Shown in pieces: positions 1,440 to 14,942 of a DNA stretch of 15,359 bases. The stretch is from SAR324 cluster bacterium (GTDB lineage Bacteria; SAR324; JACQKK01). A program made the position numbers and the translations under genes. The stretch lies in contig JAPUJL010000205.1 in NCBI GenBank assembly GCA_027296185.1, positions 1 to 15,359 of the forward strand, read 5' to 3'. The notes under the pieces were generated by a model, which worked only from the letters and a program-made list of their open reading frames with translations, was not told the DNA's origin and did no database searches. Every line of letters starts with the position of its first letter. The first letter of the stretch is position 1.

Positions 1440-2207
1440 ATGGCTTCCACCGACAATGCCTCCCTCACCGTCGTTCCCTTGATTGGGATGCCCGAAGTCC
1501 ACCCCGGCGACGACTTGGCCGCGTTGCTGTGGTCGGCGGCCCAGTCCTCCGCCGCCGGCCTGGAAGCGGGCGACGTGGTTGTGGTGGCCCAGAAGATCGT
1601 CTCCAAAGCGGAGGGAGCGCGGGTTTCCCTGGCGAGCGTCGAGCCCTCGCGGATGGCCCGGGAATGGGCCGAGGCGTGGAATCACGACCCGCGCCTGGTG
1701 GAGGTGGTTTTGCGGGAGAGCGTGCGCATCGTGAAAATGGCCCGGGGCCTCATCGTCTCCGAGACCCGCCACGGGTTCATCTGCGCCAATGCCGGGGTGG
1801 ACGCCTCCAACTCCGGGGAGGAAGACATGGCCATCCTGCTCCCCCGGGAGCCCGACCGCTCCGCCGAGCAACTGCGCGACAGCCTGGGCCGCCTTGCCGG
1901 CTGCGACCTCGCCGTGATCGTCGCGGATTCCTTCGGCCGGCCCTGGCGTCAGGGCGTCACCCAGGTGGCCGTCGGGTCGGCGGGTCTGGCCCCCATCGTC
2001 GACCTGCGGGGCGAGCGGGATGCCGACGGCCGGACGCTGCACGGCACCCTCATCGCGTTGGCCGATCAACTGGCCGATGCCGCCGATCTGGTCTGCGGCA
2101 AGTCCAGCCGCATCCCCGCCGCCGTGGTGCGCAATTACCGGGGCCCTCGCCGCGAGGGCTCGGCCAAGGAGCTGCTCCGCCCGCCGGAGGAGGATCTGTT
2201 CAGGTGA
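1440..2207 (+). CDS. cofE: Coenzyme F420-0:L-glutamate ligase (CofE family)
   Basis: GTP- and metal-dependent ligase that adds L-glutamate to F420-0 and then gamma-links further glutamates. The 255-residue protein matches the single-domain CofE length; it lacks the C-terminal nitroreductase-type domain of actinobacterial FbiB. Visible family blocks are VVVAQKIVSKAEG (47-59), NAGVDASN (117-124), DSFGRPWRQG (163-172), an IVDLRGERDADGR region (186-198) and a C-terminal CGKSSRIPAAVVR block. The ATG at 1440 is the first start that keeps the conserved N-terminus, though its ribosome binding site is weak. It opens the cofE-cofG-Mur ligase run. CofD, CofC and CofH, also needed for F420, are not in the window. 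Related CofE-fold enzymes exist, but the adjacent cofG supports this function. Confidence 0.93.
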   Translation: MASTDNASLTVVPLIGMPEVHPGDDLAALLWSAAQSSAAGLEAGDVVVVAQKIVSKAEGARVSLASVEPSRMAREWAEAWNHDPRLVEVVLRESVRIVKMARGLIVSETRHGFICANAGVDASNSGEEDMAILLPREPDRSAEQLRDSLGRLAGCDLAVIVADSFGRPWRQGVTQVAVGSAGLAPIVDLRGERDADGRTLHGTLIALADQLADAADLVCGKSSRIPAAVVRNYRGPRREGSAKELLRPPEEDLFR

Positions 2208-2226
2208 GGGTGGTCATTTGCCGAGG

Positions 2227-2304
2227 ATGAGATTACGCTTTTTGGGCGGTATCCCGGGGCCCAAGCGAACGGATCCAACATTGCTTGCCGAGGCGTTGAA
2301 TTGA
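2227..2304 (+). CDS. 25-codon mini-ORF overlapping the cofG start
   Basis: This short frame fills the gap between cofE and cofG. It reads MRLRFLGGIPGPKRT and ends LLAEALN, and I do not recognise it. Its stop TGA (2302-2304) overlaps the TTG start of cofG (2301) as TTGA, a typical translational-coupling arrangement. A TTG at 2218 in the same frame, four bases after GAGGGTGG (2206-2213), is an alternative and better-spaced start. It could be a leader peptide that delivers ribosomes to the weak TTG start of cofG, or simply an open spacer. There is no protein-level evidence. Confidence 0.35.
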   Translation: MRLRFLGGIPGPKRTDPTLLAEALN

Positions 2305-3482
2305 CAGACCGGTCGACGGAACTCATCCAAAAATCCGCCGAGAGCGCGCTTTCGGCCGAAGAGGCCACCGCGCTGATGGGCGCGCAGGGGCCGGCGATGC
2401 TGGACCTGCTCCGGGCGGCGTGCGTCCTGCGGGACGAGGCGAAGGGAAATCGCGTCACCTATTCGCGGAAGGTGTTCATTCCGCTCACGACCCTCTGCCG
2501 CGACGACTGCGGATACTGCACCTTCAAGCGCGATCCGGGTCAGCCCGGCGCCAAGACCCTCTCGCCGGAGGAGGTGCTGGAGATCGCCCGCCGGGGCAAG
2601 GCGCGGGGCTGCAAGGAGGCGCTGTTCAGCCTGGGGGACAAGCCGGAGTTGCGGTTTCCCGAGGCCGCGGCGGAGCTGGCCCGCTTCGGCTACAAGACGA
2701 CCACGGATTACCTGGTGGCCATGTGCCGGTTGGTGCTGGAGGAGACCGGCCTGTTGCCCCATCCCAACCCCGGCACCCTGGGGCGCCACGACCTGGCCCG
2801 GCTGCGGGAGGTGAGCCCGAGCATGGGCGTGATGCTGGAGAACGTCTCCCCGCGCATGCGGCAGCCGGGTATGGCCCACGAGCACGCCCCGGACAAGGTT
2901 CCGGGGGCGCGGGTGGCGATGGTGCGCATGGCGGGCGAGCTGAGAATTCCCTTCACCACCGGGCTGTTGATCGGCATCGGAGAGACCCTTCGGGAACGGG
3001 TGGACACCCTGCTCGTGATCAAGCGACTCCAAGAGGCTCACGGCCATATCCAGGAAGTGATCGTGCAAAACTTCCGGGCCAAGCCCGCGATCCCCATGGC
3101 CGATTGGCCGGACGCCACGCTGATGGAGCTGTTGCGCACCATCGCCGTCGCCCGGCTGCTGTTGGGGGGGGAGATGAACATTCAGGCGCCGCCGAATCTC
3201 TCCCCGGAAGTCTATCCGCTGCTCTTGCTGGCCGGGATCAACGACTGGGGCGGGGTCTCTCCGGTGACGCCGGATCACATCAACCCCGAGGCGCCCTGGC
3301 CGGAAATCCAGCGCCTGGCCCAGTTCAGCGCAGACGCGGGCTACGCGTTGCGCGAGCGGCTCTGCGTCTATCCGGAATACATCGACCGGAAGCCCGGCTT
3401 TCTCTCCGATGGTTTGCGCGATGCCGTACTCCGTCAGGCCGATGGAGAGGGCTATGCCCTTGCCGAAGAAAAGTACGCCTGA
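2301..3482 (+). CDS. cofG: FO synthase subunit 1 (CofG), radical SAM
   Basis: With CofH it builds 7,8-didemethyl-8-hydroxy-5-deazariboflavin (FO), the F420 chromophore and a photolyase antenna. The radical SAM cluster motif CRDDCGYC (Cys66, Cys70, Cys73) follows the CofG-typical VTYSRKVFIPLTTLC. Later blocks include the FSLGDKPE segment, HPNPGTL, MLENVSPRM, TTGLLIGIGET, VIVQNFRAKP and a LLLAGINDWGG segment near residue 310. At 393 residues it is a standalone CofG rather than a CofG-CofH fusion such as FbiC. No ATG is available before residue 26, so TTG at 2301 is the start; it has GAGG about 8 bases upstream and overlaps the preceding mini-ORF stop. The end overlaps the Mur-ligase gene. Confidence 0.95.
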   Translation: MTDRSTELIQKSAESALSAEEATALMGAQGPAMLDLLRAACVLRDEAKGNRVTYSRKVFIPLTTLCRDDCGYCTFKRDPGQPGAKTLSPEEVLEIARRGKARGCKEALFSLGDKPELRFPEAAAELARFGYKTTTDYLVAMCRLVLEETGLLPHPNPGTLGRHDLARLREVSPSMGVMLENVSPRMRQPGMAHEHAPDKVPGARVAMVRMAGELRIPFTTGLLIGIGETLRERVDTLLVIKRLQEAHGHIQEVIVQNFRAKPAIPMADWPDATLMELLRTIAVARLLLGGEMNIQAPPNLSPEVYPLLLLAGINDWGGVSPVTPDHINPEAPWPEIQRLAQFSADAGYALRERLCVYPEYIDRKPGFLSDGLRDAVLRQADGEGYALAEEKYA

Positions 3483-4950
3483 CGCCCCGCCCCGTGCAAC
3501 GCCGCCGTTGGAGCGGATCCTGGCGGAGTTGCCGCGTCCGGTCGGCCTGCTCGGCTTCGGCGAGGAGGGGCGGGCCACCCTGGCCTTCCTGAAGGGGCAT
3601 GGCGTTACAGACGCCGCCGTCTTCGATCGGGCAACATCTTTGGGGGACGAATCCGAGGCGGCGCTGCTGGAGGGAGTGCCCCTGCACAGCGGCGAGAGGT
3701 ACGACCAGCAGCTTTCCGATTGCGGCACCGTATTCCGCAGCCCGGGGGTGCGGCCCGACCTGCCCGGTCTGGAGCGGGCCCGGCGCGGTGGGGTGCGGAT
3801 CACTTCGGCCACCCGCTTGTTCTTGGAAGCATGCCCGGCCCGCACCGTGGGGGTCACGGGCACCGTGGGCAAGGGCACCACGGTCACCCTGATCGGAGAG
3901 GCGCTCGGGGCGGCGGACATTCCCCACCGCTTGGGAGGCAACCTGGGCACCAACCCTCTGGCGTTCCTGGACGAGCTCACCCCGGCCCACGTGGCGGTTC
4001 TGGAACTGTCGAGCTTTCAGTTGATGGACCTAGAGGGCCATTGGCCGGACGTGGCGGTCGTCCTGCGCACCACGAGCGAGCACTTGGACTGGCACCGGGA
4101 CGTGCGGGAGTACCGCCGCGCCAAGGCCCGGATTCTGGCGCCACCCGGCGCGGGACAACGGGCCGTTTATTGCGCCGACAGCCCCGGCAGCCGCGAAATC
4201 ATGGCCTCAGCCGCCGGAGAGACCCCAGATTATAGCCTGGCCTACAGCCTGACCGGAGCCGTGGCCCGGGGGGTCGGCACGGTGGATGGGCGGCTCGTTC
4301 GCTGCGGTCCGGGCGATCCCGCGCCGCTGGAAGCGTTGGAACGGATCGCCTTGCGGGGACGTTTCAACAGAGAGAACGCCGCCGCCGCGCTGCTGGCCGC
4401 CGAATCCCTCGGCGTGCCGGCTAAGATGGCGCTACCGGCCATTGCGGCGTTCCCCGGGCTGCCCCATCGCCTGGAAGCAGTAGGCCGTGTGGGCCGTGTG
4501 TTGTGTGTAAACGATTCCTACGCCACGCGGCCCGATTCTACCATCGGGGCGCTCTCCGCCTTCGAGGACGGACCGCTGGCGCTGATTCTCGGTGGGTCGG
4601 AGAAACACGCGGACTTCGCCGCGTTGTCGGAAGCGCTATGCCGCCATCCCACCCTGCGCGGGGTGCTGCTGATCGGAGACACGGCCCCCCGGCTGGCGGA
4701 GGAGCTGGACGCCGCCGCCCAACGCCTTGGCCTAGCCGGACCGCCCGCCGAGCGGAGCGGGGGCCTGGAGGAGGCGTTCCGCCGGGGGCTGGGCGCCTTG
4801 CCCGAAGGCGGGGTGCTGTTGCTCAGCCCCGCCTGTGCCAGCTTCGGATTGTTCCCCAATTACAAGGTGCGGGGGGAGCGGTTCCGTGCCTTGGTGGAGG
4901 ATTTCGCGGCGGGCGGCGCAGCGGCACCCGCGCCAACGCCGCGGGGATGA
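3454..4950 (+). CDS. MurD-like Mur ligase in the deazaflavin operon
   Basis: ATP-dependent ligase of the Mur family, about 498 residues. It has an N-terminal Rossmann-like part (GLLGFGEEG), a central ATPase domain with P-loop GTVGKGTT (136-143) and ELSSFQL (184-190), the carbamylated-lysine block YRRAK (Lys224), and a C-terminal domain with LPHRLE, NDSYAT, GGSEKHADF and LLSPACASFGLF. The layout is that of UDP-MurNAc-L-Ala:D-Glu ligase. Several normally fixed positions differ: GTNGKST is GTVGKGT, the G.HN..N block is GRFNREN, and NDSKATN is NDSYATR. It overlaps cofG by 29 bp and lies outside any dcw cell-wall cluster. I therefore call it MurD-like; it may be the true MurD, or a paralogue joining an amino acid to F420 or another acceptor. 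The start at 3454 has GGAGAGG close by; the ATG at 3442 is an alternative. Confidence 0.85.
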   Translation: MPLPKKSTPDAPPRATPPLERILAELPRPVGLLGFGEEGRATLAFLKGHGVTDAAVFDRATSLGDESEAALLEGVPLHSGERYDQQLSDCGTVFRSPGVRPDLPGLERARRGGVRITSATRLFLEACPARTVGVTGTVGKGTTVTLIGEALGAADIPHRLGGNLGTNPLAFLDELTPAHVAVLELSSFQLMDLEGHWPDVAVVLRTTSEHLDWHRDVREYRRAKARILAPPGAGQRAVYCADSPGSREIMASAAGETPDYSLAYSLTGAVARGVGTVDGRLVRCGPGDPAPLEALERIALRGRFNRENAAAALLAAESLGVPAKMALPAIAAFPGLPHRLEAVGRVGRVLCVNDSYATRPDSTIGALSAFEDGPLALILGGSEKHADFAALSEALCRHPTLRGVLLIGDTAPRLAEELDAAAQRLGLAGPPAERSGGLEEAFRRGLGALPEGGVLLLSPACASFGLFPNYKVRGERFRALVEDFAAGGAAAPAPTPRG

Positions 4951-8986: not shown

Positions 8987-9284
8987 AGGTCCGGCCGCCT
9001 GCCGCCTCTGGAGCGCAACGGCCGCGCACCCCTTCCCGCCGCGCGCGCGCATCGCCACTCGGTGCCTGAAGAACCGTTGGAATTATAGACCAGCGAAACG
9101 GTAAATTCACCTTTCCGTCCGCCCCTGCCAGCAGCGTTCAGCGCGGCTCCGCGGTGCGGCCTGGTGTCCCATGGCGCGGCCTCCAGGGTAAGACCGGCGT
9201 GCGGGGGCGTGCGATCGCAGGAAGCTGGGGAAATGTTGCGGGGACACGCCCCGGCGCAGGCGGAAGCGAGGTAACGCCCAGGGC
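8987..9284. other. gmk-RSH gap where rpoZ would be expected
   Basis: These 298 bp are about the size of an rpoZ gene, and rpoZ lies here in many gamma- and betaproteobacteria. The minus-strand frames contain no omega-subunit start (such as MARVTVED or similar) and none of its later motifs. The stretch holds a perfect TATAAT and GC-rich sequence, but no gene I can support. Confidence 0.6.
9082..9087 (-). promoter_or_regulatory. Candidate -10 box for the RSH gene
   Basis: A perfect TATAAT on the minus strand, about 95 bp before the RSH start, inside the 298-bp gmk-RSH gap. No convincing -35 lies at the right distance; the best is TGAATT 16 bases upstream. An own promoter would explain the long gap in an otherwise overlapping gene chain. 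Confidence 0.4.
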
Positions 9285-9881
9285 TCAGGTGGAGCGCTCG
9301 AAGCGTATCGGCTTCGCCTTTTCCACATCCAGGATGTGCCGGAAGTCGGCGACGGCCGAATCGAGCTCCTTGTTGACCACGGTGTAGTCGTACTCGGACT
9401 GGAAGCTCATCTCGTGCTCGGCCCGGGCCATGCGGCTGGAGAAGCTGCGGTCCGATTCGGAGCCCCGGAGGCGGAGCCGCTCGGCCAGAATCTCGACCGA
9501 GGGGGGCATCACGAACACGTACACGACACCGGAGCAGGCCCGTTTGATGGACAAGGTGCCCTGGGTATCGATATCCAGCAGAGCGTGGTGGCCATCGGCC
9601 AGGATGTCCTGCACGTGCTGCAGCGCCGTGCCGTAATAGTTGTCGTAGACCTGCGCCCATTCCAGAAACGCGTTGGCCGCGATCGATTCCTTGAACTGCT
9701 TCCGGTCCACGAAGAAATAATCCCGCGCGTGCTCCTCCCCCGGCCGCGGCGGGCGGGTCGTCGAGGATACCGACAGCCGCAACTCTCCGTCTTCCTCGAG
9801 CACTCGGTGGATGATGGTCGATTTCCCGACACCACTGGGCCCAGAAACCACGAACACCCGCTTCGCCGCAGCTTCAGTCAT
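9285..9881 (-). CDS. gmk: Guanylate kinase
   Basis: Phosphorylates GMP to GDP with ATP in the cytosol, feeding GTP and (p)ppGpp pools. The 198-residue protein has the P-loop GPSGVGKS (14-21), the GMP-binding block SVSSTTRPPRPGE (37-49) followed by YFFV, FLEWAQVYDNYYGT, LLDIDTQG (101-108) and the lid region with SRMARAEHE. Length and order are those of bacterial Gmk. The start overlaps the yicC stop as ATGA (9878-9881); there is no strong ribosome binding site of its own, so translational coupling to yicC is likely. It is followed by RSH after 298 bp with no rpoZ in between. Confidence 0.97.
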   Translation of the reverse strand: MTEAAAKRVFVVSGPSGVGKSTIIHRVLEEDGELRLSVSSTTRPPRPGEEHARDYFFVDRKQFKESIAANAFLEWAQVYDNYYGTALQHVQDILADGHHALLDIDTQGTLSIKRACSGVVYVFVMPPSVEILAERLRLRGSESDRSFSSRMARAEHEMSFQSEYDYTVVNKELDSAVADFRHILDVEKAKPIRFERST

Positions 9882-10756
9882 TCGATATTCTGAATTTGTT
9901 CGCGCAGCTTTTCGAGCTCGGCCTTGACGTCGATGATGAGCGCGCCGATACGGGGATGGTTACATTTCGCGGCCAGTGTGTTGGCCTCCCGATTCAGTTC
10001 CTGCAGGACGAATTCGAACTTTCGGCCGATGGAGCCTCCCGCTTCCAGCATTCGACCCAGACCCGACAGATGGGCGAAGAAGCGGGTAATCTCCTCCGTA
10101 ACATCGGAACGGTCGGCAAGAATAGCAATTTCTTGCCGAATGCGCTCATCGTCGGGGAGCCCCGCTTCCGAATAACGCGCGAGATTATCCCGCAGCCGCT
10201 GGGCGAGTTGGGCGGGGTAATCGCGCACGATGGGCTCCGCCTCGGCCAGCAAGCGTCGCAACTCGGAGACGCGCTCTCCCAAATCGGTCAGGATCGACGC
10301 GCCCTCGCTTTCGCGCATGGCGACCAGCCCTTCCAGGGCATTGGAAACGGTATCCCGCACGATCGCCTCCACCCGCTCCGGCTGCTCCTCCCAGGTCGCC
10401 GACTGGATCAGATCCTTGGTTTCGATCAGGTCGCGCAGGGTCACGGAGACCTCCTGGCCCAGCACTTCGCGGAACTGGGCCAGCAGCTTGGCGTAACTGC
10501 GCGCCAGGGGCAGATTAAGGGCCAAGGGCTCCGCGCTGGAGTCGTCCGCGGCGATTTGGATGGAGCACTCGAATTTTCCCCGGCTGCAGCAGGATTTGAC
10601 CAACTCCTTGATCGCCTCCTCGCAGTGACCGGTTCCGGAGGGCATCCGGACGCGGATTTCCAGAAAGCGTCCGTTGACCGAGCGGATTTCCACCCGGCAG
10701 CGCCAGGGCGGTACCGAATGCTCGGCGCGGCCGAATCCGGTCATGGATCGAATCAT
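9878..10756 (-). CDS. yicC: YicC-family endoribonuclease
   Basis: Cytosolic stress-associated RNase family; E. coli YicC has been linked to decay of small RNA RyhB. The 292-residue protein opens with the family hallmark MIRSMTGFGRAE, continues with EIRSVNGRFLEIRVRMPS (about 23-40), and ends with the conserved DUF1732 segment FVLQELNREANTLAAKCN (248-265) and a Lys/Glu helix. The start ATG has GGGGAG seven bases upstream and overlaps the stop of the J-domain gene as ATGA (10753-10756); the stop in turn overlaps gmk. yicC-gmk linkage is common across bacteria. Confidence 0.96.
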   Translation of the reverse strand: MIRSMTGFGRAEHSVPPWRCRVEIRSVNGRFLEIRVRMPSGTGHCEEAIKELVKSCCSRGKFECSIQIAADDSSAEPLALNLPLARSYAKLLAQFREVLGQEVSVTLRDLIETKDLIQSATWEEQPERVEAIVRDTVSNALEGLVAMRESEGASILTDLGERVSELRRLLAEAEPIVRDYPAQLAQRLRDNLARYSEAGLPDDERIRQEIAILADRSDVTEEITRFFAHLSGLGRMLEAGGSIGRKFEFVLQELNREANTLAAKCNHPRIGALIIDVKAELEKLREQIQNIE

Positions 10757-13236
10757 TCGGCCGCTCCCCGCCGTTTCGCCAGTTCGCGGTCGTAACGTCG
10801 GCGGTGGGCCGCATCGCTGAGCACTTGGTAGGCCTCGCTCAGACGGCGGCTCATCCGCTCGGATTCGCTGCGGATCCAGCCGAACTCCGATTCGCTATGC
10901 CGGTCGGGGTGGTACTGCTTGATCAGACGGTGGTAGGCGGCCTTGATCTCGGCGCCGCTGGCTGCGCTGGGCACTTGCAGGAGCTGATAGTAATCCCCAT
11001 CCTCCGTTGCCTCCGGTGCTTCCGTGGCTTCGGACTGCGGGTGGGCCGTGCCGAACTTCAAGTTGCGCAGTTCCGCGCGGATTGTGTTGAGCCGTTCGAC
11101 CAGCCGCTCCGGGTCGGCGGAACTTTCGTTGAGCCGCCGGCCCAGGGTGTTCAGCTCCGCCTCAAGTGCCAACAGGTAGGCGGTATGGTGCTGGCCGCGA
11201 TCCGCTTGGCGGCACGATTGGAGCATGTCCTCGGTCTTCTCCAGCACCTCGGCCACCTCGCTGAGCCGCACCGCCGTTCGCAAGTGCGCCCGTGCCGCCC
11301 GGTCGCGGCGGGCGCCCTCCTCTCTGCGCTGCCGGATGTCCATATCCGCCGACCGGCGACCTGCCGCCCCACCCGGGGGCGGGGGCTTGCGCAAGGGCGC
11401 TGCACTTTCCAGGGACAAGGGCCGCAGCCAGCCCAGCCAGGAAGCGCGGAAGCGGTACATCAGCCCTCCCACGATGACCAGCGCCAGCGCCATGCCGGTG
11501 CCCAGGGCGCCCAATCGGCGGAACGTGCCGCCGGAGCGGCTATCGATCTCCGCCTGCAGCGCCAGTCCCGTGGCGCTTGCCGGTTCCAGGCGCAGGGCCT
11601 CGTTGACCAGGGTTTCCGCGGCGGCGTATAGCTCCAACTCCATCTTTTGCCGCGCCTGGCCCAGGGTGTTGTCGACGTCGCGCTTTCGTTCGGCCAGGAG
11701 GATCAACTGGTTGGCCTCGGTGTAGTGCTCGCTAGCGGCGCCGATGCGGCTGGAGAGCAGCTCGATGGATTTGCGGTACTGGCCCGCGTCGTAGGATTCC
11801 TGCGCTTCGGCCAACACCTGCCGGTCGCGCATGGCGTCCAGCCGCGCCAGGGCCTGCACCGCCTCGGCATTGCCCGGGTCCAGTTCGGCGATGCGCCCCG
11901 CCCACTCGGCCACGGCGGCGGGCTCCTCCTCGCGCAAGGCCTCGCGGAGCCGTTGCGCGTATTCGGCGAGCACCCGGTCGACAGGGGCGCGGTTCAACTC
12001 CTGCTCGATCTCGCGCCGCCCGGCGCTGCTCAGCCCTTCGGGATCGAGCATCCGCGCGTAGGTGAACGCCGTCTGGTAGGCGCCCCGCTCGCGCAGTTGC
12101 CGGACGTAGTCCACGGGCGAAACCGGACGGGCGAAGGCATAGGTGCGTAGCGTCTCGTCCACTCCGGTCAGGATGTAGCGGCCGGTGGGGCTGATGGCAG
12201 TGAGTCCGGCGGGGGGGACCTCCAGCGCGCCCTCGGTCTGGCGTTTCGCCCCCTCCACCGCGGCGAGGTGCCGTTGATCGCCCTCGCGCCAAAGCACCAG
12301 GATTTTCTTCCCGGACAGGACGGACAAGGCCACCGGCTGGGCCCCGGCGGGGAGCGCCTGGAGGAAATCCATCTGCTGGGCTTGACGGTCGCCGCTCCAG
12401 GCGATCAGGTTGCGGCCCGAATCCAGGGAGACCAGCTTCCCCCCGGGGGAATATCCCATCGCGGATACGGGAAAGCGGTGCATCGTCAACGTGCCCTGCG
12501 GTTGGGCGGGGTTGCCCGCGTAAAGCGCAATACGCTTGTCTCCGTGGCCATACGCCGCCAGCGCCGCCATTGTGGGATGCAGCGCGATGCCGCCCGGCGC
12601 GCCTTCCCCCTCGAGCAGCGGCGTCTCAGGCGCCGAGGACTCCGCCTTCGCTTCCCGGAAGTACAGGGCCGCGCCCTCGCGCCACACCGCACCCGGCGGT
12701 TCGGCGGCGAAGGCGGCGGCGAAGATGGGGCCATCGGTCACCGGAGTCTGGCGCCACAGGCGGTGCTCCTCGGCCAGGGGCGCATCCACGCGCAACTCCC
12801 CGACCGGGACCTCCCACAACTCCAGTGCATCCTCGCCCCACACCAGCAGTTGGTCCCGGTCCGGCGCGAAGGCCAGCCGGGGAGAGGCTCCCGGCTCCCC
12901 TTTGAGCGAGCCCAGGGCGGCTCCGCTGCGCCGGTCGAGCAACCGCACGTCCACCTCGCCGCCGCCCGCCTCGAGCGCCACGGCGATCAGAGCCTCGTCC
13001 GCGTTGATCCCGACAGCGAGGATCTCCTCGTCGAAGGGAATTTCCTTCTCCAGGCGGAAGGGGCCGTCCGCCGCCGCCGCCCAGCCCGGTTCGAACGGCC
13101 AGTCCGGCGCGAAAGGCCAGCCAGCCGCGAAGAGCATGGCCAGCAACAATCCCCATACGGCCGCTCCCCGGCCGGAAGGCCGCCGGCGGGGATCGCCGCG
13201 AAGGCGGGGCCCCGGGCCCGGGAGGGTGGCTAGCAT
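10753..13236 (-). CDS. Large membrane J-domain protein with predicted periplasmic propeller-like and helical-repeat part
   Basis: About 827 residues. An Arg-rich N-terminus precedes a hydrophobic segment (25-43) that may be a signal peptide or anchor. Residues about 58-375 hold repeated short beta-rich units with Trp/Tyr and SPGG/SPTG turns (WGEDALELWEV, GYSPGGKL, AISPTGRYILTG), like degenerate WD40 blades. Residues 380-570 are helical, TPR-like. A second hydrophobic segment (575-594, LGALGTGMALALVIVGGLMY) is followed by basic residues, a Pro-rich linker, a coiled-coil-like helix (about 635-725) and a C-terminal J-domain (749-819) with YHPDR (His-Pro-Asp 776-778). Basic residues before segment one and after segment two place both ends in the cytoplasm and the middle in the periplasm. 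The J-domain should stimulate DnaK. The ATG at 13236 overlaps the trmB stop by 7 bp (ATGCTAG). Domain calls beyond the J-domain and membrane segments are inference; no named family recognised. Confidence 0.8.
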   Translation of the reverse strand: MLATLPGPGPRLRGDPRRRPSGRGAAVWGLLLAMLFAAGWPFAPDWPFEPGWAAAADGPFRLEKEIPFDEEILAVGINADEALIAVALEAGGGEVDVRLLDRRSGAALGSLKGEPGASPRLAFAPDRDQLLVWGEDALELWEVPVGELRVDAPLAEEHRLWRQTPVTDGPIFAAAFAAEPPGAVWREGAALYFREAKAESSAPETPLLEGEGAPGGIALHPTMAALAAYGHGDKRIALYAGNPAQPQGTLTMHRFPVSAMGYSPGGKLVSLDSGRNLIAWSGDRQAQQMDFLQALPAGAQPVALSVLSGKKILVLWREGDQRHLAAVEGAKRQTEGALEVPPAGLTAISPTGRYILTGVDETLRTYAFARPVSPVDYVRQLRERGAYQTAFTYARMLDPEGLSSAGRREIEQELNRAPVDRVLAEYAQRLREALREEEPAAVAEWAGRIAELDPGNAEAVQALARLDAMRDRQVLAEAQESYDAGQYRKSIELLSSRIGAASEHYTEANQLILLAERKRDVDNTLGQARQKMELELYAAAETLVNEALRLEPASATGLALQAEIDSRSGGTFRRLGALGTGMALALVIVGGLMYRFRASWLGWLRPLSLESAAPLRKPPPPGGAAGRRSADMDIRQRREEGARRDRAARAHLRTAVRLSEVAEVLEKTEDMLQSCRQADRGQHHTAYLLALEAELNTLGRRLNESSADPERLVERLNTIRAELRNLKFGTAHPQSEATEAPEATEDGDYYQLLQVPSAASGAEIKAAYHRLIKQYHPDRHSESEFGWIRSESERMSRRLSEAYQVLSDAAHRRRYDRELAKRRGAAE

Positions 13237-13904
13237 GCGGATTTTTCCACGCACAAGTAAAACACCGGCTTCCGTTGGGCGCTGAACATCCGCTCAAACT
13301 CGGATTCCAGCTTCGGTCCGGGCGGGTGGTTTCGCTTCAAGTCATTGGAAAAGAAACGAATTGTCCAGCGCCCGCTGCGATGAACGATATGAAGGACATG
13401 CAAGAAATATCCCGAATGATCCGTCTTGAGGTGAAAGCACCCCCCGGGTTTCAGGGCCGTCTCGATCCGCTCCAGTAACTCCGGATTGACCATGCGCTTC
13501 TTCCACTGGGAAGCCTTGGGCCAGGGATCGGGAAAGTTGATGTACAGCGCATCCACGGAGCCCGGCCCGAAATAGCCGGGAAATTGCTCCGCCGGCTCAC
13601 GGAGCGCCCACACATTGGTCAGTCCCAGTTTCTCGAATTTCCGGGCGGACTTCACCAGCCGTTTGTAGCGCAGCTCGAAGCCAACCACATGCTCGCCGGG
13701 GTAAGCCTGGGCCAGTTCCAGCAGGAAGTTGCCCGAGCCGCTGCCCAGCTCCACCCGCAGTCCCCCGGCCGGCCGCTCCGCCCGCCGCGCCCGCAACTGT
13801 TCCGGCGTGGGCCGGGGCAGCAGGTACGCCGGATGATCGTACAACCAGCGCGTGTAGGGATTGATCCGAAATGCCTCGTCCGACGTATTCAATAGCATCG
13901 GCAT
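13230..13904 (-). CDS. trmB: tRNA (guanine-N7)-methyltransferase
   Basis: Makes m7G46 in the tRNA variable loop using S-adenosylmethionine. The 224-residue protein has the SAM-binding motif VELGSGSGNFLLELA (51-65) with acidic residue in VVGFELR (73-79), the family signature INFPDPWPK (122-130) followed by a KKRMVNPELL region, LKPGGCFHLKTDHSGY, and the C-terminal TrmB block LESEFERMF. Length is normal. It begins at ATG 13904 (ATG at 13898 is an alternative); no clear ribosome binding site. Its last codons overlap the J-domain gene, making it the first gene of the trmB-J-yicC-gmk chain. The second J-domain gene diverges 114 bp upstream. Confidence 0.96.
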   Translation of the reverse strand: MPMLLNTSDEAFRINPYTRWLYDHPAYLLPRPTPEQLRARRAERPAGGLRVELGSGSGNFLLELAQAYPGEHVVGFELRYKRLVKSARKFEKLGLTNVWALREPAEQFPGYFGPGSVDALYINFPDPWPKASQWKKRMVNPELLERIETALKPGGCFHLKTDHSGYFLHVLHIVHRSGRWTIRFFSNDLKRNHPPGPKLESEFERMFSAQRKPVFYLCVEKSAC

Positions 13905-14018
13905 GGGATGAGGAGCGGGGCGCCGCCCTCTCCCCCGGCAGGGGTTTTCTTCTAGACTGGCGCTTGGCTGCGGGGGCGATCATTCGCTGCCAACCGCCAC
14001 CAGCCCCTTGGCAACCGG

Positions 14019-14942
14019 ATGAACTACTATCAACGCCTGCAGGTCGACCCCAAGGCCTCGACGGAAGTCATCAAGAGCGCCTACCGCGTATTGCTGAAGC
14101 GCGTGAATCTCCATCCCGACCTGGGCGGCGACGAGGCGGTGACCAAGGAGATCAACGAGGCCTACGGCGTGGTCAGCGACCCGGCCCAGCGGGAAGTCTA
14201 CGATCGGGAACTGGCGCTGGTCGAAACGCTCTTCCAGCCCGTTTTTTCGCCGGAGTATATCCTATTTTGCCATTTTTGCGGGAAGCGCAACCGCATCTAC
14301 GACGAGTCGCGAATCCCCCGCGCCCGTTGCGGCGCGTGCCACCGGAAACTTCAGGCGTCGGGTCCCGCCGCCTCCGGCGAGGCGCCTCTGCGGGCGTTCC
14401 GCCTGGGGGTGTTCCTGTTCGAGAAGGGTCTGCTGGACCGCTCCCTGCGGGAGTTCCTGTCGGCGGTGCGGCTGAAACCCAAAAGTGCCACCTACCGCTA
14501 CTGGCTGGGCCGGTGCTATTACCAGAAGCGCAGCCACGAGAAGGCGCTGGTCGAATTCCGGGTGGCGGTCTCGATGAAGCCCAAGTCCTTCCAGTTCCGG
14601 TTCTGGCTGGGCCAGACCTACCATGCCATGAAGGACCACGGCGGGGCGGCGGGCAGCTTCGAGACGGCCGCAGAGATCCGGCCCGATTACGCGCCGACGT
14701 TCCACCGCCTGGGCTCTGCCTATTTCGAGCTGCAGAAGTTCGACGAGGCGGTTAGCGCCTTCGAGCGCACCCTGGAGCTCGACCCCCACAGCATTCAGTC
14801 GCTCCGGTGGTTGGGGCTGTGCCAATATTCCGCCGGGGACCCGGAGCGCGCCGCCCAGGCCTTTCTTCAGGCCGACCGGATGGCGCCGGGCGATCCGTTC
14901 ACCCAGAAATACCTGGGCCTCCTCGGTCAAGCCTCCGCCTGA
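14019..14942 (+). CDS. J-domain, zinc-knuckle and TPR protein
   Basis: 307 residues, no signal or membrane segment, so cytosolic. N-terminal J-domain (2-63) with NLHPD (His-Pro-Asp 32-34) and the helix IV block YDRELAL. Then CHFC (Cys84, Cys87) and CGAC (Cys104, Cys107), a single four-Cys zinc knuckle quite unlike the paired CxxCxGxG repeats of DnaJ. Then five consecutive 34-residue TPR units, about 124-157, 158-191, 192-225, 226-259 and 260-293, each with a Leu-Gly at the same position. The J-domain should activate DnaK, while the TPRs bind a partner or client. The start is the only ATG before the J-domain; its ribosome binding site is weak. It diverges from trmB and its membrane J-protein partner gene. 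No named family recognised. Confidence 0.88.
   Translation: MNYYQRLQVDPKASTEVIKSAYRVLLKRVNLHPDLGGDEAVTKEINEAYGVVSDPAQREVYDRELALVETLFQPVFSPEYILFCHFCGKRNRIYDESRIPRARCGACHRKLQASGPAASGEAPLRAFRLGVFLFEKGLLDRSLREFLSAVRLKPKSATYRYWLGRCYYQKRSHEKALVEFRVAVSMKPKSFQFRFWLGQTYHAMKDHGGAAGSFETAAEIRPDYAPTFHRLGSAYFELQKFDEAVSAFERTLELDPHSIQSLRWLGLCQYSAGDPERAAQAFLQADRMAPGDPFTQKYLGLLGQASA

Follow-up and report, generated by a model that had tools for sequence, protein, structure and literature searches.

Gene organization at the locus

The DNA analysed here is the 15,359 nt contig JAPUJL010000205.1 (the window) from a SAR324 cluster bacterium (assembly GCA_027296185.1, a draft genome of 2.73 Mb and 73.6% completeness), and its minus strand carries a gene for a predicted transmembrane J-protein. 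The open reading frame (ORF) runs from its first ATG at 13236 to its stop at 10753 (10753..13236), comprising 827 codons plus stop, and is conserved; a chance open frame is ruled out by whole-length conserved relatives in genomes of the same family. Family matches identify the other genes around it on the same strand: trmB upstream, encoding tRNA (guanosine-46-N7)-methyltransferase (13230..13904), yicC downstream, encoding an endoribonuclease (9878..10756), and gmk beyond yicC, encoding guanylate kinase (9285..9881). The end of trmB overlaps the start of the J-protein gene by 7 nt, and overlaps of 4 nt join the stop of the J-protein gene to yicC and yicC to gmk; these overlaps suggest a single transcription unit of four genes. 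A scan of window positions 9000-14200 found no promoter-like sites (shuffled sequences, mean 0.6) and three terminator-like sites (versus a shuffled mean of 3.5).

Domain layout and predicted structure

An earlier note, made by reading the sequence, described the product as a membrane-spanning J-domain protein with a predicted periplasmic sensor part: a complete J-domain with its HPD motif, two hydrophobic segments about 530 residues apart, and a middle part of beta-rich and helical repeats. All of these elements are present. In particular, Pfam DnaJ (PF00226) matches residues 748-816 (10789..10995; E = 1.5e-17; score 63.9 bits, cut-off 27.8), where the structure model also places a J-domain, and the HPD motif at residues 776-778 (10903..10911) is kept in all 28 aligned members (22/22 rows of alignment A1 and 6/6 of A2). 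With a sliding window of 19 residues, hydropathy peaks at residues 25-43 (13108..13164; 1.76), a signal anchor or cleavable signal peptide, and at residues 575-593 (11458..11514; 2.02), transmembrane segment 2, leaving 531 residues between them; there is also a weaker third maximum, of 1.56 at residue 72, within a stretch predicted as beta strand. Both peaks reach at least 1.5 in 26 of 28 aligned members, the exceptions being P0003, which has no N-terminus, and L057, whose first peak is 1.33.

The predicted structure (mean predicted local distance difference test score, pLDDT, of 82) contains, in order, a WD40-type propeller of about seven blades (residues 58-372; 12121..13065), TPR-like helices (residues 373-570; 11527..12120), the membrane helix, a helical hairpin (residues 639-724; 11065..11322), also recognizable in the alignment, and the J-domain, with one unbroken helix (residues 555-596) joining the last TPR helix to the membrane segment. 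The propeller fold over residues 58-372 is seen in the model and in structural alignment, alongside weak Pfam propeller matches; comparison with solved structures informs the propeller only, and the match lists for the whole model were filled by propeller matches. The WD40 repeat PF00400 scores 14.4 bits in the window protein, under the Pfam cut-off of 27; 9 of 22 members match it at E ≤ 0.1, and member P0007 carries a precomputed PF00400 annotation. TPR_19 is found at E ≤ 0.1 in 12 of 22 members, the window protein itself not among them.

Conservation differs between these parts. Over 171 pairs from 19 members (L041, L045 and P0003 left out), mean pairwise identity is 0.50 in the J-domain, 0.33 in the TPR part, 0.31 in the hairpin, 0.28 in the propeller and 0.22 in transmembrane segment 2. 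The columns invariant in A1 include W141, W185, H253, S270, D272 and L277 in the propeller, S349, T351, G352, Y354, Y377, L381 and A390 at the propeller-TPR junction, A540, and Asp679 and Glu694 in the hairpin; Asp679 is also invariant in alignment A6.

Distribution in SAR324

Membership was determined with profiles that exclude the J-domain, and counts were taken over 52 SAR324 genomes divided into families f1-f4, with genus g11 lying within f2. Full-length members with the same domain order occur in 30 of the 52 genomes and in three families: 10/10 in f1 (the window's family), 10/14 in f2 outside g11 and 10/10 in f4, against 0/17 in g11, several of whose genomes are small, and 0/1 in f3. The same 30 genomes were recovered by a separate search with the core formed by the TPR part, transmembrane segment and hairpin. 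Two members counted among the 30 are incomplete as read, one starting at a contig end (G026) and one split over two frames (G043). The misses in f2 are G024, G028, G035 and G037, the last of which has a J-domain 49% identical to that of the window protein in an ORF cut by the contig end. Whole-length relatives of 33-43% identity are present in all nine other searched genomes of f1. By this distribution, the gene is old in SAR324.

Protein searches covered 5.8 billion proteins, with about 8,000 candidates scored per search. The f4 profile returned 17 members at E < 1e-186, followed by a propeller protein at 4.4e-13; the f1/f2 profile without the J-domain returned three members with a J-domain (one shares 98% identity with the window protein), followed by propeller-domain proteins from E = 2.4e-24; and the window protein alone returned four members. 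Among the candidates scored, the family is sharply bounded. A scan of genome contigs with the single protein as query found no relatives. An alignment-based scan did find them; its only pattern lay in the J-domain, so that ordinary J-domain matches account for many of its 80 loci.

The earlier note's suggestion that the same architecture might lie beside trmB or yicC in other genomes holds in two families and fails in the third. In f1, trmB precedes and yicC follows the J-protein gene at all ten loci (the window and nine others); in f4, trmB is adjacent at 8/8 and yicC at 7/8 loci (eight distinct loci from ten genomes, G043 and G049 left out and three duplicate records counted once); in f2, this setting occurs at 0/10 loci. 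One f2 locus (L044) starts at a contig end, with its upstream side out of view; at the nine others an NAD-dependent epimerase gene precedes the J-protein gene, and at several, cca-, smpB- or dprA-like genes follow it (all named by eye from their sequences). Because f4 falls outside the order to which both f1 and f2 belong, the trmB-yicC position is probably ancestral. Since trmB and yicC are housekeeping genes, adjoin the J-protein gene in f1 and f4 only and are not its neighbours in f2, co-location was not used as functional evidence, and an assignment of function from the neighbours was dropped.

Membrane topology

Not one cysteine lies between the two hydrophobic segments in any of the 28 aligned members (0/13,875 residues; the sample includes the partial P0003, and L041 and L045, near copies of L038). 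As controls, seven kinds of protein encoded beside the gene at f1 loci contain 142 cysteines in 12,543 residues (1.1%), and 161 conserved ORFs that neighbour it at other loci, read from stop to stop, contain 541 in 54,964 (1.0%). Among neighbour ORFs of at least 300 residues, 6 of 102 are free of cysteine, five of which form one cluster, by eye a membrane-anchored coiled-coil protein. The absence of cysteine supports export of the intervening part.

The basic flanks described in the earlier note are found at segment 1 of the window protein, with six lysine or arginine residues (K/R) before it and none in the 15 residues after it, but at transmembrane segment 2 the K/R are balanced, with three on either side within 15 residues. 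Across the ten f1 members, segment 1 has 4-9 K/R before it and 0-2 in the 15 residues after it. In several members, segment 1 ends in a small-x-small motif (ALA, LLA, AMA), and may therefore be a cleaved signal peptide. Together, hydropathy, cysteine content and charge favour a propeller outside and a J-domain inside. Of eight J-domain loci in the source genome, only this one encodes a protein with hydropathy peaks of at least 1.6.

Comparison with known J-proteins

By the definition given in the consulted passages of PMC8215388 and of section 4 of PMC10939069, the predicted protein is a class C J-protein; it has no DnaJ C-terminal beta-sandwich or zinc-finger match in Pfam at E ≤ 1, and the NCBIfam DnaJ and CbpA models match it only within residues 746-822. 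Like DjlA, as described in passages of PMC11709261, it combines a C-terminal J-domain predicted to be cytoplasmic with a membrane anchor and an intervening part, and DjlA works with DnaK. However, DjlA has a short periplasmic N-terminus, one transmembrane segment and a TerB-like domain, whereas the window protein has 531 residues between two hydrophobic segments. The DjlA equivalog model NF006948 scores 24.1 bits against a cut-off of 162, and no TerB match was found in Pfam at E ≤ 1, the model placing a helical hairpin between the transmembrane segment and J-domain; identity with DjlA was rejected on this score, the missing TerB match and the large part predicted outside.

DjlB and DjlC also keep a J-domain at the inner membrane, and DjlC acts with HscC (passages of PMC8215388), but they are tail-anchored, with the J part before the membrane segment; in the window protein the J-domain (residues 748-816 of 827) follows both segments. 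Identity with either was rejected, their J-domain being at the opposite end. Sec63 is a transmembrane J-protein whose chains the window J-domain matches weakly (E = 0.0023); its J-domain faces the lumen of the endoplasmic reticulum (ER), and identity was rejected because the window protein has no Sec63 (Brl) match in Pfam at E ≤ 1. The ER proteins DNAJB12 and DNAJB14 offer a further likeness, one transmembrane segment linking a cytosolic J-domain to a domain on the other side (passages of PMC10939069); they are eukaryotic, with the J-domain N-terminal to the membrane segment and a different lumenal domain. No description of a propeller-TPR-transmembrane-J architecture was found in the literature searched, passages of PMC13254874 included, which does not amount to a claim of its absence from print.

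Similar architectures outside SAR324

The core search covered 383 genomes with six candidates scored per genome, so that misses are weak evidence. Matches span the length of the core in the 30 SAR324 genomes (split in two for G050) and only a part of it in 46 others; 40 of these 46 matches end at or before model position 108, in the TPR part, and six reach positions 132-161, into the transmembrane segment. The ORFs of all six long matches were read, as were three of four sampled from the 40 (the fourth, L151, has an internal stop and was left out).

One long match, an 824-residue ORF in genome G112 (locus L147, 1457-3928, minus strand), matches the core at E = 1.1e-11 over the TPR part and transmembrane segment only, and is itself a J-protein. 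It has an N-terminal hydrophobic segment, a right-handed beta-helix (PF13229, E = 1.6e-24) instead of the propeller, TPR-like helices, a transmembrane segment, a cytoplasmic stretch and a C-terminal J-domain (PF00226, E = 2.3e-16). Full-length members of this beta-helix family (L147, L162-L168) occur in seven of nine genomes of its phylum, all seven from one family, and 7/7 have more K/R after the second transmembrane segment than before it; they differ from the SAR324 proteins also in having ectodomain cysteines.

Three further long matches (G324, L149 1234-5670, plus strand; G187, L150 175-4512, minus strand; G071, L172 3412-8259, plus strand) are large receptor-like Ser/Thr kinases with FG-GAP-type propeller repeats, TPRs, a transmembrane segment, cytoplasmic TPRs and a C-terminal kinase; in L172, only the second transmembrane segment is above the hydropathy threshold. 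The remaining two are an N-terminal kinase with no transmembrane segment above threshold (G087, L148) and a protein with a matrixin-type peptidase, TPRs and a transmembrane segment near its C-terminus (G375, L173). The three short matches (L152, L153 and L154) have TPR or FHA-TPR layouts with no J-domain match. As read from these ORFs, the plan recurs with another ectodomain and with another output. Because TPR likeness is common, common descent of the stalks across the SAR324, beta-helix and kinase proteins is not claimed. The J-protein is not the oddity of one genome, as its presence in 30 of 52 SAR324 genomes and three families, together with the recurrence of its layout in a second phylum, makes clear.

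Proposed function

Recruitment of DnaK is the most likely biochemical act of the predicted protein, because the J-domain is present and conserved and DnaK-type genes are present in the source genome. Among the matches listed, Hsp70 occurs in 51 of 52 SAR324 genomes, including 16 of the 17 genomes of g11, the genus in which the J-protein was not found. Of the earlier note's proposal, a sensor that recruits DnaK, the recruitment is retained and the sensing is ranked below targeting.

We favour, as reasonably probable, the account of a class C J-protein that spans the inner membrane and whose periplasmic part determines where on that membrane DnaK is recruited. The N-terminal hydrophobic segment would export the next 531 residues, folded as propeller and TPR-like helices with a conserved junction (residues 349-393); the second segment would cross the membrane; and a cytoplasmic helical hairpin would carry, through a flexible linker, the J-domain. 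By stimulating DnaK, this domain would load it on clients near the membrane, at sites that depend on the periplasmic binding partners of the propeller and TPR part. The most likely clients would be membrane proteins or trans-envelope assemblies.

Targeting is favoured because of precedents among known membrane J-proteins. According to passages of PMC11709261, overproduced DjlA loosens the IgaA-RcsD interaction through its J-domain, and Rcs induction by DjlA needs its membrane placement, while DjlA without its transmembrane segment still disturbed IgaA-RcsD in a two-hybrid assay. Caulobacter DjlA is said to boost the assembly and/or capacity of AcrAB-NodT (PMC10754441), and DNAJB12 recruits Hsp70 to membrane proteins that have misfolded (passages of PMC10939069).

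Several observations weigh against this account. The tail after transmembrane segment 2 is also poor in cysteine (5/6,414 residues), so the presumed periplasmic part is not alone in having lost cysteine, and the exported-type beta-helix proteins carry one to three ectodomain cysteines each. The charge bias is modest: only 14 of the 27 members with a start have more K/R ahead of segment 1 than behind it, a signal that is weak outside f1, and K/R are more numerous after than before transmembrane segment 2 in 17 of 28 members, with seven ties and four cases of fewer. The operon neighbours trmB, yicC and gmk are housekeeping genes that name no partner, and the f2 neighbours differ. Moreover, among the matches listed, the number of Hsp70 genes per genome does not follow the J-protein gene, on which ground a dedicated DnaK partner was rejected.

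The main rival is gating by a periplasmic signal, which is possible, if on the unlikely side: a ligand, peptide or unfolded envelope protein on the propeller would change the helix between TPR part and membrane and switch the J-domain on or off, so that the periplasmic state controls DnaK or a DnaK-dependent regulator. Consistent with it, the propeller diverges faster than the J-domain, as receptor ectodomains do; a similar outside part is joined elsewhere to signalling outputs, kinases being among the six core matches; and the unbroken helix 555-596 would couple the last TPR helix to the membrane segment. However, no ligand and no conserved non-structural pocket were identified, and the invariant H253, S270 and D272 look like what we take to be structural positions of the WD40 motif. 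The kinase proteins share likeness in the TPR part and transmembrane segment only, at modest E-values (2.7e-10, 9.4e-8 and 2.7e-6), and TPR likeness is common.

It is rather improbable that the protein serves a single machine of the envelope (translocon, secretion complex or Bam-like complex), on which the propeller and TPR part would dock, modules of both kinds often being docking parts, while the J-domain supplies DnaK to incoming precursors as a cis-side counterpart of Sec63. The effect ascribed to Caulobacter DjlA (PMC10754441) and the targeting of Hsp70s by class C J-proteins (passages of PMC8215388) would suit such a factor; but no secretion gene was seen among the compared neighbours at f1, f4 and f2 loci (printed neighbour clusters, read by eye), and a protein whose gene was not found in any of the 17 g11 genomes is hardly needed for general secretion. 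A reverse or absent membrane topology, with a cytoplasmic propeller in an ordinary J-protein that is soluble or peripheral, is very improbable: to our knowledge most known bacterial WD40 proteins are cytoplasmic, and the flanks of transmembrane segment 2 are balanced in the window protein, but 26 of 28 members have both hydrophobic peaks, several first segments end like signal peptides and 28/28 lack cysteine between the segments.

In the consulted passages on DjlA, DjlB and DjlC, these bacterial membrane J-proteins have little or nothing outside the cytoplasm; about 530 exported residues, if true, would connect the periplasm physically and directly with the DnaK system. Such a layout could let cell-envelope conditions steer protein-folding help to the membrane, and of the readings considered, signal gating would be the most consequential if true. 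More broadly, and tentatively, the SAR324 and beta-helix families may represent an unrecognized class of bacterial transmembrane J-proteins spread over two phyla. Their periplasmic beta domain, a propeller or a beta-helix, would be exchangeable and, together with a TPR stalk, would control from across the inner membrane the site or timing of DnaK action; such proteins would be chaperone receptors with the build of the receptor kinases recovered by the core search, but with a J-domain as output.

Other J-domain proteins and neighbouring genes

Divergent from trmB, window positions 14019-14942 (plus strand) encode another J-domain protein, in which the J-domain is followed by TPR repeats; among its six cysteines there may be a zinc ribbon (Zn_ribbon matches weakly, E = 0.56). 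Its gene holds the same position in eight of nine f1 relatives, the ninth contig stopping at trmB. Elsewhere in the source genome, an N-terminal J-domain is fused to a helix-turn-helix domain, HTH_25 (L008, 1441-2208, plus strand; E = 3.6e-19), the type present in RodZ, and a J-domain is followed by a DUF2807-like beta part (L002, 349-1503, minus strand; E = 4.4e-5, just under the Pfam cut-off), an unusual pairing. Further, window positions 1440-4950 (plus strand) carry cofE and cofG, for the F420 cofactor, then an overlapping gene for a MurD-like Mur ligase; the adjacency of cofG and the Mur ligase is kept in the four f1 loci that extend far enough (L030, L033, L034 and L035).

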